Below, piece after piece: positions 21,237 through 58,509 of a stretch of DNA of 64,000 bases (the first letter of the stretch is position 1; each line of letters opens with the position of its first letter). Where the stretch lies: contig JBBCGY010000001.1 of assembly GCA_037200005.1 (NCBI GenBank), positions 1,755,103 through 1,819,102 on the forward strand, in the 5' to 3' direction. The stretch is from Alphaproteobacteria bacterium. GTDB taxonomy: Bacteria > Pseudomonadota > Alphaproteobacteria > UBA9219 > RFNS01. A program made the position numbers and the translations under genes. Under the pieces are notes generated by a model. It did not search any database, was not told the origin of the DNA, and saw nothing but the letters and a program-made list of their open reading frames with translations.

Positions 21237-21647
21237 ATGCGCGACAGTTCCAGGGCGAAACGGCCATTACCGGATCGAAATAAAAACGGACATGGATGCG
21301 ACTTCATCAGCCGCAATATTCGTGTTTGCGGAAGACGGACCTCGATCCGCCTGGAACGCGCGATGTGGCAAGCTCTCGAAGACATCAGCGCCCGCGAATC
21401 GGTGGCGATTCGCGATTTATGCAGCATCGTCGATGAACGGCGGCGCGGCAATAATCTTACCGCGGCCGTCCGCCTTTTTATCATCGGCTATTTTCGCATT
21501 GCGGCGATGGGCGCCAATCCCTTGCCGCCGCTGCCCACGACCTATACTTCGCCGCCGCCATCACCGCCGCCGCCTAAACCGAAGACAAGCTTCTCGGACA
21601 ACTATCTCGGCCCTCTCGTGATCGCCGCGATCATAGCGCTCGAATAG
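21237..21647 (+). CDS. Ribbon-helix-helix (RHH_4-like) protein
   Basis: 136 residues, GGTGA ahead of the ATG at 21237. The core TSIRLERAMWQALEDIS, then LCSIVDERRRGNNLTAAVRLFIIGYFR, matches the alphaproteobacterial RHH_4 pattern of a beta-strand plus two helices used for DNA binding. A proline-rich linker and a short hydrophobic end (LGPLVIAAIIALE) follow, which is unusual for a repressor and could tether it to a membrane. A second open frame covering the same region lacks any such pattern. Targets are unknown. Confidence 0.7.
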   Translation: MRDSSRAKRPLPDRNKNGHGCDFISRNIRVCGRRTSIRLERAMWQALEDISARESVAIRDLCSIVDERRRGNNLTAAVRLFIIGYFRIAAMGANPLPPLPTTYTSPPPSPPPPKPKTSFSDNYLGPLVIAAIIALE

Positions 21648-21664
21648 ATCTTTGGGCTGACCCA

Positions 21665-21808
21665 AGAACCTGTTTAGAATCTTGTCAGGCCGAGGCGAAA
21701 ATGGGGGTTTTTCAAGCTTTCGGGCGCAGCGTATTCAACATACGTGAGCACCGAAAGTTTGAAAAAGTTCCATTTGCAGCCCGGCATCACAAGATTATAA
21801 CAGGTTCT
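21665..21808. repeat. Structured dispersed repeat, copy 1
   Basis: A 144-bp near-palindrome filling the gap between two convergent genes and reaching the secF stop codon. Outer arms AATCTTGT / ACAAGATT and AACCTGTT / AACAGGTT; middle stem TTTTTCAA / TTGAAAAA; apex CGTAT-TCAAC-ATACG. It shares GGCGAAAA, GCGTA, TACGTGAGCA and TTTGCAGCCC with copies at 44786 and 58006, while its outer arms are unrelated to theirs. Confidence 0.9.
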
Positions 21809-22760
21809 AGGCTGCCTTCAGTTCCATGCGCCTGAGCGGCGGCATATAGAGCAAAAGCGCGGCCGCGACATAAATCGACGAATAGGTGCCGACCAGAACG
21901 CCCCATGCCAAGGCGAGAGAGAAATTCAGCATGGCCTGTCCGCCGAACAGAATCAGCGGCAGCAAGGCAAGCAGCGTCGTTCCCGCCGTCATGATCGTAC
22001 GCGACAATGTCTGATTGACCGACGCGTTGATGACGGCGCGAAGGTTTTCGGTCTTGTGCCGCCTGATGGTTTCCCGGATACGGTCGAATACCACGACGGT
22101 ATCGTTGATCGAATAGCCCGCGAGCGTAAGCAGCGCCGCGATCGCCGTGAGATTGAAGTCCAGCTGCAGCACGGCGAACAGCCCGACCGTCACGAACACG
22201 TCATGCATGGCGGCCATCAGGACGGCGACACCGAACTGCCATTCGAAACGGAAAACGACATAGAGCGCGATCGCCAGCATCGCGAACAGAACCGCGAGCA
22301 GCCCGGCCCGCAGCAATTCCGCACCGATGGTCGGCCCGACCACTTCGACTCGCCGGTATTCATAGCCCGGCCCGAGCTTGGCGCGCACCTTCTCGATGGC
22401 GGCCATTTGCGTGCTGTCATCCGCCGCCTGGCCCGCCGGATGACCTTCCGCCTGCCCCCCCGCCTGGCGCTGAATGCGGATCAGCACGTCGCGCGGGCTG
22501 CCGAATTCCTGCAAGGATATTTCGCCGAGATGGAGGCTTTCCAGATCGGCGCGCAGCGCCGTCACGTCGATCGTTTGCTTGGATTGGGCCTCGATCAGAA
22601 TGCCGCCCTTGAAATCGATGCCGAGGTTAAGCCCCTGCACCGCAAGCGCCACGACCGTAATGAGCATCAACCCTATCGTCACGCCGAACGCCCACCAGCG
22701 TTTGGCGACGAAATCGACATTGGTATCGATTTTAACCCAGTGAATTGGCTTGAATTTCAT
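21807..22760 (-). CDS. secF: Protein translocase subunit SecF
   Basis: 317 residues, six membrane spans. The family motif LGIDFKGG follows TM1, and GYSINDTVVVFDRIRE is in the TM4-TM5 region. SecF with SecD uses the proton gradient to help pull secreted proteins across the membrane. No secD or yajC is in the window, so secF is detached from its usual partners. A Gly/Gln-rich insert (about residues 100-118) in the periplasmic domain is longer than usual. Confidence 0.95.
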   Translation of the reverse strand: MKFKPIHWVKIDTNVDFVAKRWWAFGVTIGLMLITVVALAVQGLNLGIDFKGGILIEAQSKQTIDVTALRADLESLHLGEISLQEFGSPRDVLIRIQRQAGGQAEGHPAGQAADDSTQMAAIEKVRAKLGPGYEYRRVEVVGPTIGAELLRAGLLAVLFAMLAIALYVVFRFEWQFGVAVLMAAMHDVFVTVGLFAVLQLDFNLTAIAALLTLAGYSINDTVVVFDRIRETIRRHKTENLRAVINASVNQTLSRTIMTAGTTLLALLPLILFGGQAMLNFSLALAWGVLVGTYSSIYVAAALLLYMPPLRRMELKAA

Positions 22761-43163: not shown

Positions 43164-44705
43164 TCACCACCACCGCTTCCATGCCGGTTCCTTCGAGCTT
43201 TTTTGTTTTTTGACGGGAGGCCGGAACGGCGACGGCGACGCATGAACCGCGGACTCGGATGGAGGCGAGGTTTCGAGTTGGGGCGATTCGGCCTGAGAAG
43301 ATTTTGCCTGCGGGTGCGGCAGCCGCAGCGGCAGGGGAGATTCCTGCCGCGAAGATTTCGGCGCCTGCGCTTCCGGCTGCGATGGCGGGTTTGCGGCCTC
43401 GACGAGGCGTGGCCGCGGCCGCGGCAAAGGCGCGTTTTCGTCGACTAAATGCCTCATATGATGTCCCCGGCGGACAAATTTTTTCAATGATCTTGCCTCG
43501 ATCTGGCGAATTCTTTCCCTGCTAAGCTCGAATTTATTGCCCGTATCTTCGCAAGAATGTTCTGTTCCGCCACCGATTCCATAGCGCATGCGCATAATTT
43601 CTTGATCGCGCGCGGGCAGCGTCTTTAAAAGCCGTTCGGCCTCGGCCTTGATCTCGTGACCGACAAGTTCCGCGAAAGAATCAACGCGCGTATCCGGAAT
43701 AAAGTTTCCGAGCGCGGTTCCCCCTTCCGCCCCATCGACAGGCGCATCGAGGCTCGTGTAACGGAATCCGGCCTTTTGCCGCAGGGCATTAATTTTTTCG
43801 ACAGTCATGTCCAATCTTTGCGCCAGCGAATCCGCCGTCGGCTCCTCGCCGGTTCTGACATTAATTTCAGTGGATACGCTGCGAAATTTCCTGATTTTCT
43901 CGCACTGATGGCCAGGAATGCGCACGGGAGCGCCCTGATCGTCGACCGCCCTCAGCAGGGCCTGATTGATCCAATAGCTGGCATAAGAAATGAATTTGAA
44001 GCCGCGGCGATGATCGAATTTCTCCGTAGCGGCCATCAGCCCCATATTGCCTTCCTGAACGAGATCGATAAAGGAGACGCCACGCCCGATATATTGCTTC
44101 GCGCGTGAAACGACAAAACGCAGATTGGCGGCAATCAGGTGATTTTTGGCGGCATTGAGTTCCCGCACCGCGTTCGCAGCCGCTGGAGAAGCCGCGCGTC
44201 TCGCTATGTCCTGAAGATGCGCGTCTTTTGGCCGCATATCGAATATCAGAGCAACGAGTTTTGTTCTTTCTTGGCTGATTTCTGGATTGAGGCCGGGATC
44301 GGGAGCTTGAAGATCGGTCTCATATTTCGTCAATTGCGCGGCAATGGCGCCAGCGGTTGCGAGCCATTTCTTGATATCGACGGGTTTCTTCGGCGGGTTT
44401 TGTCCCTCGGGACTCGCTTCGATTGCCTCGATGGCTTCGGGATCGCTTAAAGATTCGATCATCTGCGCCAAGGGCCGCTTGCGTCCGGCGACGCTTGCAT
44501 ATAGTGCCTGAAGCCCCCTGGCTCCTTTCGGTGACTCCAGCAATCTCTCGATGACGCTTTCCCGCGCCGCCTCTATCCGCAGGGCGCACACGACTTCCTG
44601 ATCCCTGTCCAGGGGCGCCGCGTTGCCCAGGCTGCGCATATATGCGGCAGTCGCATCCGGCGAATGCGGAATATCCTTATCAGCCTTTGCCGAAGGTTTG
44701 GACAT
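43164..44705 (-). CDS. Sigma-70 family factor with long basic/proline C-terminal tail
   Basis: About 513 residues from the ATG at 44705 (GGAA before it); an upstream ATG at 44738 lacks a ribosome site. Region 1.2 [17 protein letters not shown], region 2 ([53 protein letters not shown]), region 3, and region 4 with [18 protein letters not shown] roughly 100-residue extension follows, rich in Pro, Lys, Ser and Gln. It has no close match to the housekeeping RpoD (no acidic region 1.1). It is probably an alternative group 2 factor; the regulon is unknown. Confidence 0.85.
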
Positions 44706-44785
44706 GGCTTCCACGGCTATGGACGGTTTGCGCCGCATGGATGATACATCGAAATATGAGGTTATCTTTATAATAATTCATGTCT

Positions 44786-44931
44786 TAGAAACCATCTGAA
44801 AAGTCATCAGGCCGTGGCGAAAACCATGCTTTTCGAGAACCGCGGCGTAGCGTATTCAATATACGTGAGCAGCGGAAGCGCAGAAAAGTATGGTTTGCAG
44901 CCCGGTATCATGGCTTTTCAGAGGTTCTCTT
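44786..44931. repeat. Structured dispersed repeat, copy 2
   Basis: A 146-bp near-palindrome in the 335-bp gap between the divergent sigma factor and ybeY genes; the rest of that gap shows no gene. Outer arms CTGAAAAG / CTTTTCAG, middle stem CATGCTTTTC / GAAAAGTATG (one G-U pair), apex CGTAT-TCAAT-ATACG. It shares GGCGAAAA, TACGTGAGCA and TTTGCAGCCC with the other copies. A short CTTAG occurs at both edges. Confidence 0.9.
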
Positions 44932-45040
44932 AGCATAACGGGCAAGAACGGTCATAGCCTTATGATGGGTTAATGTCGAAATGGGGTCGCTTCCGGCCGC
45001 TTCTTGTGCGGCCTCTGCTTTCCGGATAGGGATAGCCTCT

Positions 45041-45577
45041 ATGATCGTCATCAAAAAGAATAGTCGCGCGCGCCTTTCGCTTGAATTCGTACCGCTGTCG
45101 CCACTGTGGCGGGGGCAGAAAAAGCTTGAGACCGCATTGCTTCCCGCCTTGCCGCCGATTGCCGCAAGCGCGAAGTTACCGCCCGGTTCCTATGTCATTG
45201 CCGTCGCCTTGACCGACGACAAGCATCAGGCGGAACTCAATCATCAGTTCCGCGGCATCGCTAAATCGACGAATGTTTTGTCTTTCCCGCAATTCACGAA
45301 ACCCGAGTTAGGGCGGCTAAAGCCGGACAAAGAGCCGATTTTCCTCGGCGATATTTCACTTTCTTATCAATATATAGTGGGTGAGGCGAATAGAGAACAC
45401 AAGATATTGATTAACCACAAAATCCATCTTGTGATTCATGGGATTTTGCATATTCTAGGCTATGATCATCGGACATTGCGGCAAACCGCCGCGATGGAAA
45501 AACTGGAGCGCGATATTCTAGCCGCCATGAAGATACCCGATCCCTACACACCGCCATGCGACAGCGGCGGCAGATAA
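45041..45577 (+). CDS. ybeY: Endoribonuclease YbeY
   Basis: 178 residues from the ATG at 45041 (AGGGA 8 bases before). YbeY processes the 16S rRNA 3' end and takes part in ribosome quality control. The zinc site HGILHILGYDH is complete, with the LGDISLS and TNVLSFP motifs before it. It is 8 bases before corC, as in the common ybeY-corC-lnt order; phoH, which normally precedes it, is 16 kb away. Confidence 0.95.
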   Translation: MIVIKKNSRARLSLEFVPLSPLWRGQKKLETALLPALPPIAASAKLPPGSYVIAVALTDDKHQAELNHQFRGIAKSTNVLSFPQFTKPELGRLKPDKEPIFLGDISLSYQYIVGEANREHKILINHKIHLVIHGILHILGYDHRTLRQTAAMEKLERDILAAMKIPDPYTPPCDSGGR

Positions 45578-57356: not shown

Positions 57357-57992
57357 TTAACCAATAGCGGCGCAAAAGGCGGCGATTTTGGCTGGATTCT
57401 TGACGCCCGGCCTGTCTTCCACGCCGGACGAAACATCCACCTGCGCCGCCCCGCTGATGCCGACGGCCTCTGCGACATTGTCGGGCGTCAGCCCGCCCGC
57501 CAGCATCCAGGGCCGGGGAAATGTCCGCCCGGCCAGAAGCCGCCAGTCGAACGCCGCCGCGTTGCCGCCGGGCAAAGAAGCGCCGGGCGCGGGCTTGGCG
57601 TCGAACAGCAGCTGATCGGCCAGCGGCGCGTAATCGGCGACGGCGGCGAAATCTTCCGCCGCCGCGATCTTGACCGCTTTGATGATTTTCGCGCCGGTCG
57701 CGGCCTTGATCGCCGCCACGCGGCGCGGCGCTTCCGAACCGTGCAGCTGCAGCCAATCGAGCGGAACATGCCGCAATGCGGCTTGCAGCGCCGCGTCATC
57801 GGGATCGACGAACAGCCCGGCGATCTGGATTCTTCCCGCCGCCAGCCTCGCGAGCTGAGCCGCCTGCTCAAGCGTCACTGCGCGCGGCGAAAGCGGATGG
57901 AAAACCAGCCCCACATAATGCGCGCCCGCGCCGATGGCCGCCGTCAGGCTTTGAGGATCGTTAATGCCGCAGATTTTTACTTTGACCGGCAT
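57357..57992 (-). CDS. trpF: Phosphoribosylanthranilate isomerase
   Basis: 211 residues. The general-base Cys in VKICGIND, HYVGLVFHPLSPR, LQLHG and the general-acid Asp in QVDVSSGVED, with AGGLTPDNV for phosphate. It isomerises PRA to CdRP in tryptophan synthesis. It is the head of the trp cluster; the two PfkB genes separate it from trpB. Confidence 0.95.
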   Translation of the reverse strand: MPVKVKICGINDPQSLTAAIGAGAHYVGLVFHPLSPRAVTLEQAAQLARLAAGRIQIAGLFVDPDDAALQAALRHVPLDWLQLHGSEAPRRVAAIKAATGAKIIKAVKIAAAEDFAAVADYAPLADQLLFDAKPAPGASLPGGNAAAFDWRLLAGRTFPRPWMLAGGLTPDNVAEAVGISGAAQVDVSSGVEDRPGVKNPAKIAAFCAAIG

Positions 57993-58005: not shown

Positions 58006-58151
58006 AGGATGTGTTTTCAATTGCGTCAGAATGAGGCGAAAATGCAGGTTTTCGAGCACCGGCGCGCAGCGTACCTTAAATGTACGTGAGCACCGGAAGC
58101 GCAGAAAATCTGTATTTGCAGCCCATTATGGCGCAATTGAGAATACATCCT
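58006..58151. repeat. Structured dispersed repeat, copy 3
   Basis: A 146-bp near-palindrome upstream of trpF, ending at the stop codon of the next gene. Outer arms GGATGT / ACATCC and TCAATTGCG / CGCAATTGA; middle stem GGTTTTC / GAAAATC (one G-U); apex CGTAC-CTTAAAT-GTACG, where both sides changed relative to the CGTAT/ATACG of copies 1 and 2. It shares GGCGAAAA, TACGTGAGCA and TTTGCAGCCC with them. Confidence 0.9.
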
Positions 58152-58509
58152 ATGGTTCCTGGATGGAACCCGTCACGTAATCGATCCAATAGACTTTCTG
58201 GGCGCCCTTGGCTTCGGGAACGATGCAAACGATTTCATAAAGCGGGGGCTTGCCGTCAGGCACGATTTCATGCGCGATGCTGACGATTTCGGCGCAAGGC
58301 CTGCCTTTCAGATTGAGGGTGCTTTTGAGCATGCGCTCAACCACGTCCGCGGGCGGAACCTCGCTGATATTCTCCATGGTAATCTTGCTGCCGGTCAGAT
58401 GACTGCTGAATAATAAAAAGTGCTTTTTCTCCAGGTCGCTGTATTCGCCCGCACAGACGGCGCGGCTGAACAAACCCAGAGCCAGGATAAGCAGGATGCG
58501 CATTGTCAT
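58150..58509 (-). CDS. Small secreted protein, unknown
   Basis: 119 residues (ATG at 58509, or 58503) preceded by AGAGAGG. Signal peptide (RILLILALGLFSRAVCA), then a mature part with two cysteines (RPCAEIV, EIVCIV) and aromatic WIDYVTG near the end. No family recognised. The gene starts 12 bases after ymdB, so it is probably its operon partner. Confidence 0.6.
   Translation of the reverse strand: MTMRILLILALGLFSRAVCAGEYSDLEKKHFLLFSSHLTGSKITMENISEVPPADVVERMLKSTLNLKGRPCAEIVSIAHEIVPDGKPPLYEIVCIVPEAKGAQKVYWIDYVTGSIQEP

Follow-up and report, generated by a model that had tools for sequence, protein, structure and literature searches.

The window (the whole stretch of DNA that was analysed, 64,000 nucleotides long) contains three intergenic hairpins that share a core and differ in their arms, and the question raised by this locus is how such an element is copied and what keeps it folded. 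All three elements carry GGCGAAAA, TACGTGAGCA and TTTGCAGCCC in the same order, as originally predicted, and exactly these three were recovered in the 64 kb by the model R3 with E values of 1e-21 to 1e-27; R3 was built from 52 sequences, all outside Alphaproteobacteria, and its structure line comes from R2 and hence from R1 (both models are described below), so that what it tests independently is sequence content, more than the fold. When the edges are taken as the terminal repeats, the window copies measure 142-144 bp. Their positions, ends and neighbours are as follows:

21666 to 21807, forward strand: element 1, with type II ends GAACCTGTTTAG...ACAGGTTC (R3 match at 21663-21810, 90.4 bits), between a ribbon-helix-helix gene (21237-21647, forward) and secF (21807-22760, reverse).
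21694 to 21701, forward strand: 5′ side of the outer internal loop of element 1, GGCGAAAA, conserved in alignment A2.
21724 to 21750, forward strand: apical module of element 1, GCGCAGCGTA-TTCAACA-TACGTGAGCA, with a GCA/GA internal loop and a conserved G.U pair.
21773 to 21782, forward strand: 3′ side of the outer internal loop of element 1, TTTGCAGCCC.
21807 to 21809, reverse strand: stop codon TAG of secF, its G being the final base of element 1.
44788 to 44929, forward strand: element 2, with type I ends GAAACCATCTGAAAAG...CTTTTCAGAGGTTCTC (R3 match of 103.7 bits), between divergent genes, a sigma-70-type gene (43164-44738, reverse) and ybeY (44981-45577, forward).
44785 to 44787 (left) and 44930 to 44932 (right): target-site duplication TTA of element 2.
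58007 to 58150, forward strand: element 3, with ends GGATGTGTTTTCAATTGCG...CGCAATTGAGAATACATCC (R3 match of 112.9 bits), between a trpF-like PRA isomerase gene (57357-57992, reverse) and an ORF (58150-58509, reverse).
58150 to 58152, reverse strand: stop codon TAG of the ORF at 58150-58509, its G being the final base of element 3.

A pattern search of the genome gave eight copies with the exact core and none for the reversed pattern. The covariance model R1, built from the same 17 own copies, found 17 copies in 2.36 Mb and nothing beyond, with all of its opposite-strand matches overlapping them; the copies are non-coding and about 142-162 bp long. Together with the R3 result, these counts rule out chance. 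The outer arms had been described as unrelated between copies and each self-complementary, which is correct within the window but not genome-wide, as the type I arm (that of the 44.8-kb element, GAAACCATCTGAAAAGTCA) is common to 11 of the 17 copies and the type II arm (that of the 21.7-kb element, GAACCTGTTTAGAATCT) is present in three; the ends of another three copies (L001, L003 and L008) differ from both types. Type I copies start with GARACCRTCTGAAAAGTCATCAGG or near variants and finish with its complement (n = 11), their terminal repeat being GARACC, and type II copies start with GAACCTGTTCAGAATCTTGTCAGG or near variants. No recognisable shared terminal repeats were detected at the ends of L001 and L003 (at 266 and 314 kb) or of the Pseudomonas copies, although the arms of the latter do pair.

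The trinucleotides directly outside the type I ends were identical on the left and right in 10 of 11 copies (TTA in six, TAA in four), the remaining copy being flanked by ATA and TAA. If left and right flanks were merely alike in composition, the exact permutation probability of ten matches would be 1/462. These flanking TTA/TAA trinucleotides are target-site duplications. In G042, a genome from another family of this class, and elsewhere, type II copies (L071, L072, L076, L099, L140 and L143) showed TAA, TTA or TCA duplications outside GAACC-type ends; many other type II copies have no intact duplication, and a duplication of CTAG or TA was seen in some other alphaproteobacteria. An automated search for boundaries gave 10 duplications in 68 copies versus 2.7 in permutations, but it often put the edges inside the arms and is therefore not used as main evidence.

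When the whole genome was searched for the type I end, only the ends of these elements and one lone match were found. As the type I end is confined to these elements but for that match, a core landing in palindromes that were already there is not supported, and the arms are the ends of a transposon rather than palindromes that arose by chance. The lone match, a repeat without partner (L053, G000:C1 1721320-1721340), may be what is left of a deleted copy or of the parent IS. The prediction of a dispersed family with a copying mechanism was thus borne out by the 17 copies, their shared terminal repeats and the 3-bp target duplications, and the arms did not prove to diverge at random, most of them being types of transposon-like terminal repeats. 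Because of the shared terminal inverted repeats and the identical TTA/TAA duplications, we consider it probable that the elements are non-autonomous transposons (MITEs), with IS5-like ends round a conserved folded core.

No match to the IS5-type transposase domains PF01609 and PF13340 was found in this genome, so that the elements are orphans here. G042, in which R1 gave 34 matches (some perhaps on the opposite strand) and many copies are of type II, holds an 852-bp IS5-family element with two frames (L283 1455-2330, G042:C32). Its ends, written as GAACCAGTCACG...CGTGACTGGTTC or as GAACCAGTCACGTAAACC...GGTTTACGTGACTGGTTC, are flanked by TAA on both sides, and the ends GAACCAGTCACGTAAACC are perfect. 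The first five bases (GAACC) and the TAA duplication are the same in this element and in the type II copies, which makes it a candidate source for type II elements, and from the shared ends and duplication length we infer that an IS5 transposase moves the elements. No empty sites were seen for the copies on an E. coli plasmid and on a Shinella plasmid, the related sites listed either carrying the element or diverging.

To outline the spread of the family, R1 was applied to 59 sampled genomes of the order and class, and 25 of them gave matches, in a patchy distribution. An exact scan for the apex in 84,980 species returned at least 118 stretches, and the matches listed include Alphaproteobacteria, Pseudomonas, Vibrio, Providencia, delta-type MAGs, Paenibacillus, Oceanobacillus and Evansella, among others. 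The broader model R2, made from 78 sequences, matched 24 times in a Pseudomonas genome, 22 in an Oceanobacillus, eight in a Providencia and seven in a Vibrio, and with an E value of 1e-5 or better it matched at least 43 genomes in an even sample of 150 from the phylum. Judged by these matches, the core is widespread in Proteobacteria and in Bacilli (Paenibacillus, Oceanobacillus). In Paenibacillus (L167, L172, L177, L201, L210 and L238), head-to-tail arrays of two or three hairpins were found with a spacing of about 185-220 bp, an arrangement unique in the set. In Providencia stuartii (L227 7105-7240), whose genome has eight model matches, one copy sits within the spacer between the 16S and 23S rRNA genes, in the same orientation as the rRNA, and so should be transcribed with it.

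R2 also detected copies in E. coli at pyrH-frr and on a plasmid, with E values of 1e-7 to 1e-9. This repeat is about 135-151 bp long, and a similar sequence was found by blastn in 4094 of 5426 E. coli genomes. The plasmid copy begins with GAGCCTATCCCA (GAGCC ends) and has a TTA duplication on both sides; on plasmid pKTa005_1 (L278 1957-2107) it overlaps the 3′ end of an efflux RND transporter gene, and copies at the same site are present on many conjugative plasmids, including those of Klebsiella, Citrobacter and Enterobacter. A blastn search of plasmids with a Pseudomonas copy gave no match.

Each window element folds into one long hairpin. As RNA, the forward strand of elements 1, 2 and 3 gave -80.3, -71.9 and -83.9 kcal/mol, respectively, versus shuffle means of -33 to -39; these folds lie 8.8 to 13.5 SD below dinucleotide shuffles, none of which equals them. 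The reverse strand of the three elements folds less stably, by 10 to 20 kcal/mol, since forward-strand G.U pairs become A.C there. One asymmetric internal loop, with GA on one side and GCA opposite, occurs three times per helix: at GGCGAAAA/TTTGCAGCCC, at TTCGAGAA/GCGCAGAAA in most copies and, inverted, at GCGCAGCGTA/TACGTGAGCA. The inverted loop is followed by a fixed G.U pair in 72 of 78 diverse copies and in 47 of 52 copies of the set outside Alphaproteobacteria.

Two variations on this plan were observed. Three copies of the own genome (L064, L062 and L063, at G000:C1 142926-143093, 288188-288355 and 1428281-1428448, respectively) have an additional side hairpin of 20 nt, GATTTGAAATCCACAGGATTTCAT, within the middle loop. 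In L131, L132, L129 and L084 (from G004, G008 and G006, one related family), the apex is retained but GGATTTT/AAAAGCCAAC, or something close to it, stands in place of the outer loop GCGAAAA/TTTGCAGC, which suggests that loop modules may be exchangeable.

The claim that a structure rather than a sequence is being kept was examined with the covariance models in the genome and its relatives. In the 17 own copies, 95.3% of the pair cells were standard versus 82.9% after shuffling, none of 500 shuffles reached any of the measures and 29 of 51 pairs had changed on both sides; when the partner was slid by 1-3 columns, pairing was only 32-42%. In the 78 diverse copies, 90.0% of the cells were paired versus 60.1% in shuffles (again 0 of 500), with compensatory change in 48 of 51 pairs and 33-42% in the slid controls, and up to six standard pair types per pair were found in the outer arm. 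The alignment was fitted to the structure and is biased in its favour, but the differences from the slid controls and the range of pair types far exceed this bias; the broad alignment (A5), which replaced one that held antisense matches (A4), still includes two of them. Compensatory change exceeds the controls, and the claim therefore stands both genome-wide, with arms that covary well beyond shuffles, and across genomes. The pairing of a palindrome can be kept by intrastrand repair, mimicking covariation, whereas the asymmetric loops and the G.U pair would not be.

The asymmetry between strands was followed in 100 copies of the order and class. Single mismatches on the forward strand were G.T in 151 cases versus A.C in 30, with the same direction in 16 of 19 genomes (p 0.004), and the forward strand folded better in 93 of the 100 copies, by a mean of 10.3 kcal/mol. 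Placement was biased too, the elements lying at gene ends. Among the alphaproteobacterial copies, the stop codon of the gene reading into the element overlaps its end by 2 to 5 bases in 35 cases on the right versus eight on the left (p 4e-5), genes being called heuristically as longest open frames and copies within one genome sharing history; the own genome gave nine on the right and none on the left. Between tandem genes, the element was antisense in 60 cases and sense in 27, and eight of the 17 own copies lie between convergent genes. As the ends are symmetric, this orientation bias must arise from the asymmetric core, via target choice or later selection. The genes that abut the elements transcribe the reverse strand, so forward-strand RNA is not their expected product. 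Read together, these observations would be explained most simply if the forward-strand fold is what acts and does harm within the 3′ portion of a host message.

These data can be assembled into a probable account in which the element has two layers. The outer layer is a terminal inverted repeat of IS5-like type, one of several, with a 3-bp TNA duplication. The inner layer, conserved across phyla, is the folded core, which is about 100 nt long and includes the GA/GCA internal loops and the fixed G.U pair. The starting point is the shared mobile unit seen in the terminal repeats and target duplications. It would be mobilised in trans by IS5-type transposases, each end type answering to a different one, and an IS5-type transposase would have copied the elements while one was present. 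The core, in which pairing and loops are seen to be conserved and the forward strand favoured, would be contacted by a common host factor. Selection would act on the forward-strand fold, more likely in the form of RNA than of single-stranded DNA. Such a fold would carry a cost when it lies within the 3′ portion of a host mRNA, and the survivors would be mostly antisense to the gene that they abut. More speculatively, as the element is a palindrome, template switching within the hairpin could transfer a new end from the side that gained it to the opposite side. A further-reaching reading is of a single ancient superfamily that includes ERIC and spans Proteobacteria and Bacilli, a passenger that switches its transposon ends and with them its carrier transposase, with an RNA or single-stranded DNA core that is recognised by a common host factor and fixes the orientation to gene ends; this reading is put forward tentatively, its chances being a little short of even.

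The strand asymmetry and the bulged bases would also suit a substrate of one DNA strand, recognised in replication or transposition like integron attC or the ends of IS200/IS605. DNA too tolerates G.T better than A.C, and the abutting genes transcribe the other strand; however, the IS5-like ends and short duplications suggest a double-strand DDE mechanism, and single-stranded DNA as the functional form seems rather unlikely. The strong covariation, the conserved internal loops and the strand bias due to G.U pairs are likewise what a small non-coding or cis-regulatory RNA family would show, spread by duplication and with mobility as an incidental trait, and the Pseudomonas copies that keep pairing arms without a shared terminal repeat and the Providencia copies in the rRNA spacer point the same way. 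Such a family is nevertheless quite unlikely, given that identical TNA duplications and shared terminal repeats are present, that no conserved gene neighbour was seen, that no promoter-like site rose above chance and that copies are mostly at 3′ ends, antisense to the abutting gene.

That the core hairpin is mobile alone and inserts centrally in pre-existing palindromes such as terminators, from which the differing arms would result, is very improbable: different arms do surround one core, and the targets of YPAL span or adjoin dyad symmetry (PMC2229807), but type I ends are paired only round the core in this genome, the 3-bp duplications lie outside the arms and not round the core, no terminator-like T run is present and relatives were in part seen to lack palindromes that have these arms but no core. 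Diverged intrinsic or bidirectional terminators, for which long stable hairpins at gene 3′ ends, often between convergent genes, would speak, are hardly tenable, as there is no U tract, a terminator scan was negative at all three window sites and the loops and motifs conserved across phyla are not needed for termination.

The elements were also compared with known repeats. The original prediction had matched the elements to no named repeat family, and this holds for Rfam, where no family matched the window copies or copies in 17 loci of other taxa; weak matches to plant and animal miRNAs were put down to chance, as expected of any long hairpin. It does not hold entirely for ERIC, which is detectable as a distant relative. 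Two ERIC copies from E. coli scored 24.3 and 23.3 bits with R2 over their full length, and 31.5 and 28.8 bits with R3 (E 2.2e-6 and 1e-5 in 9.7 kb, or by simple scaling about 1e-3 over the whole E. coli genome), the next best match having 11.4 bits; neither model contains ERIC, and the searches were unfiltered, ERIC going unreported with default filters. From these model scores, we conclude that ERIC is a distant relative of the window elements.

ERIC (IRU/RU-1) is also a single long imperfect hairpin, intergenic and MITE-like, with an apex of the form GA-GCNTAC-loop-GTANGT-GA and an outer loop AAGGCGA/ACGCAG, as in the gamma members, and its effect on the upstream mRNA depends on orientation (PMC2229807, PMC10969869). 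In contrast, ERIC is 127 bp long, is found in enterobacteria and Vibrionaceae, has a reported duplication of TA versus the 3-bp TNA of types I and II, has a GA/GA loop at the apex (mostly GCA/GA in the family) and U-A in place of the family's usual G-C, and scores low. Filing the window elements as ERIC was rejected, as length, consensus and target duplication differ and the likeness is in structure and loops only. The E. coli pyrH-frr and plasmid repeat has arms different from those of the window elements, and no published name could be linked to it.

Other systems were likened by description. Correia/NEMIS of Neisseria, a MITE with terminal repeats and a length of 107-155 bp, gives a hairpin in the transcript that RNase III cleaves (PMC2229807), and an IHF site is present in one of its forms. 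R178 of P. fluorescens is 101 bp long, has an internal 11-bp inverted repeat and is present in all three strains (PMC2718517), so that by description alone its identity with the present family is a lead, and a tail-to-tail placement bias has been reported for P. fluorescens intergenic repeats (PMC2718517). Caulobacter CIR, formed by two hairpins with a linker (PMC2229807), and Brucella Bru-RS are likewise dispersed alphaproteobacterial intergenic palindromes. YPAL/RU-2 and RU-3 (sequences in PMC2759123) were discarded, as no shared apex was seen in a by-eye comparison, and so was REP/REPIN, a palindrome of 20-40 bp with a GTAG or CGTC tag and a RAYT transposase, which differs in length and sequence.

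No description of the motif sequence or of a prior unification was found in the open-licence papers searched, and one may exist elsewhere. In reviews, ERIC, Correia, YPAL, CIR and other repeats are each treated on their own, as bound to a taxon and of unclear origin. As a kind, the element described here is a MITE-like palindromic repeat; what appears to be new is a superfamily of such hairpins that extends over several phyla and in which ends are interchangeable, together with the bias in orientation. A single covariance model that links ERIC to elements of Alphaproteobacteria, Pseudomonas, Vibrio and Bacilli allows the origin and function of all of them to be tested jointly and supplies a family for annotation, and the conserved loops suggest a candidate binding site of a shared factor. 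Interchangeable ends round one core would let a non-autonomous element outlast any single transposase.
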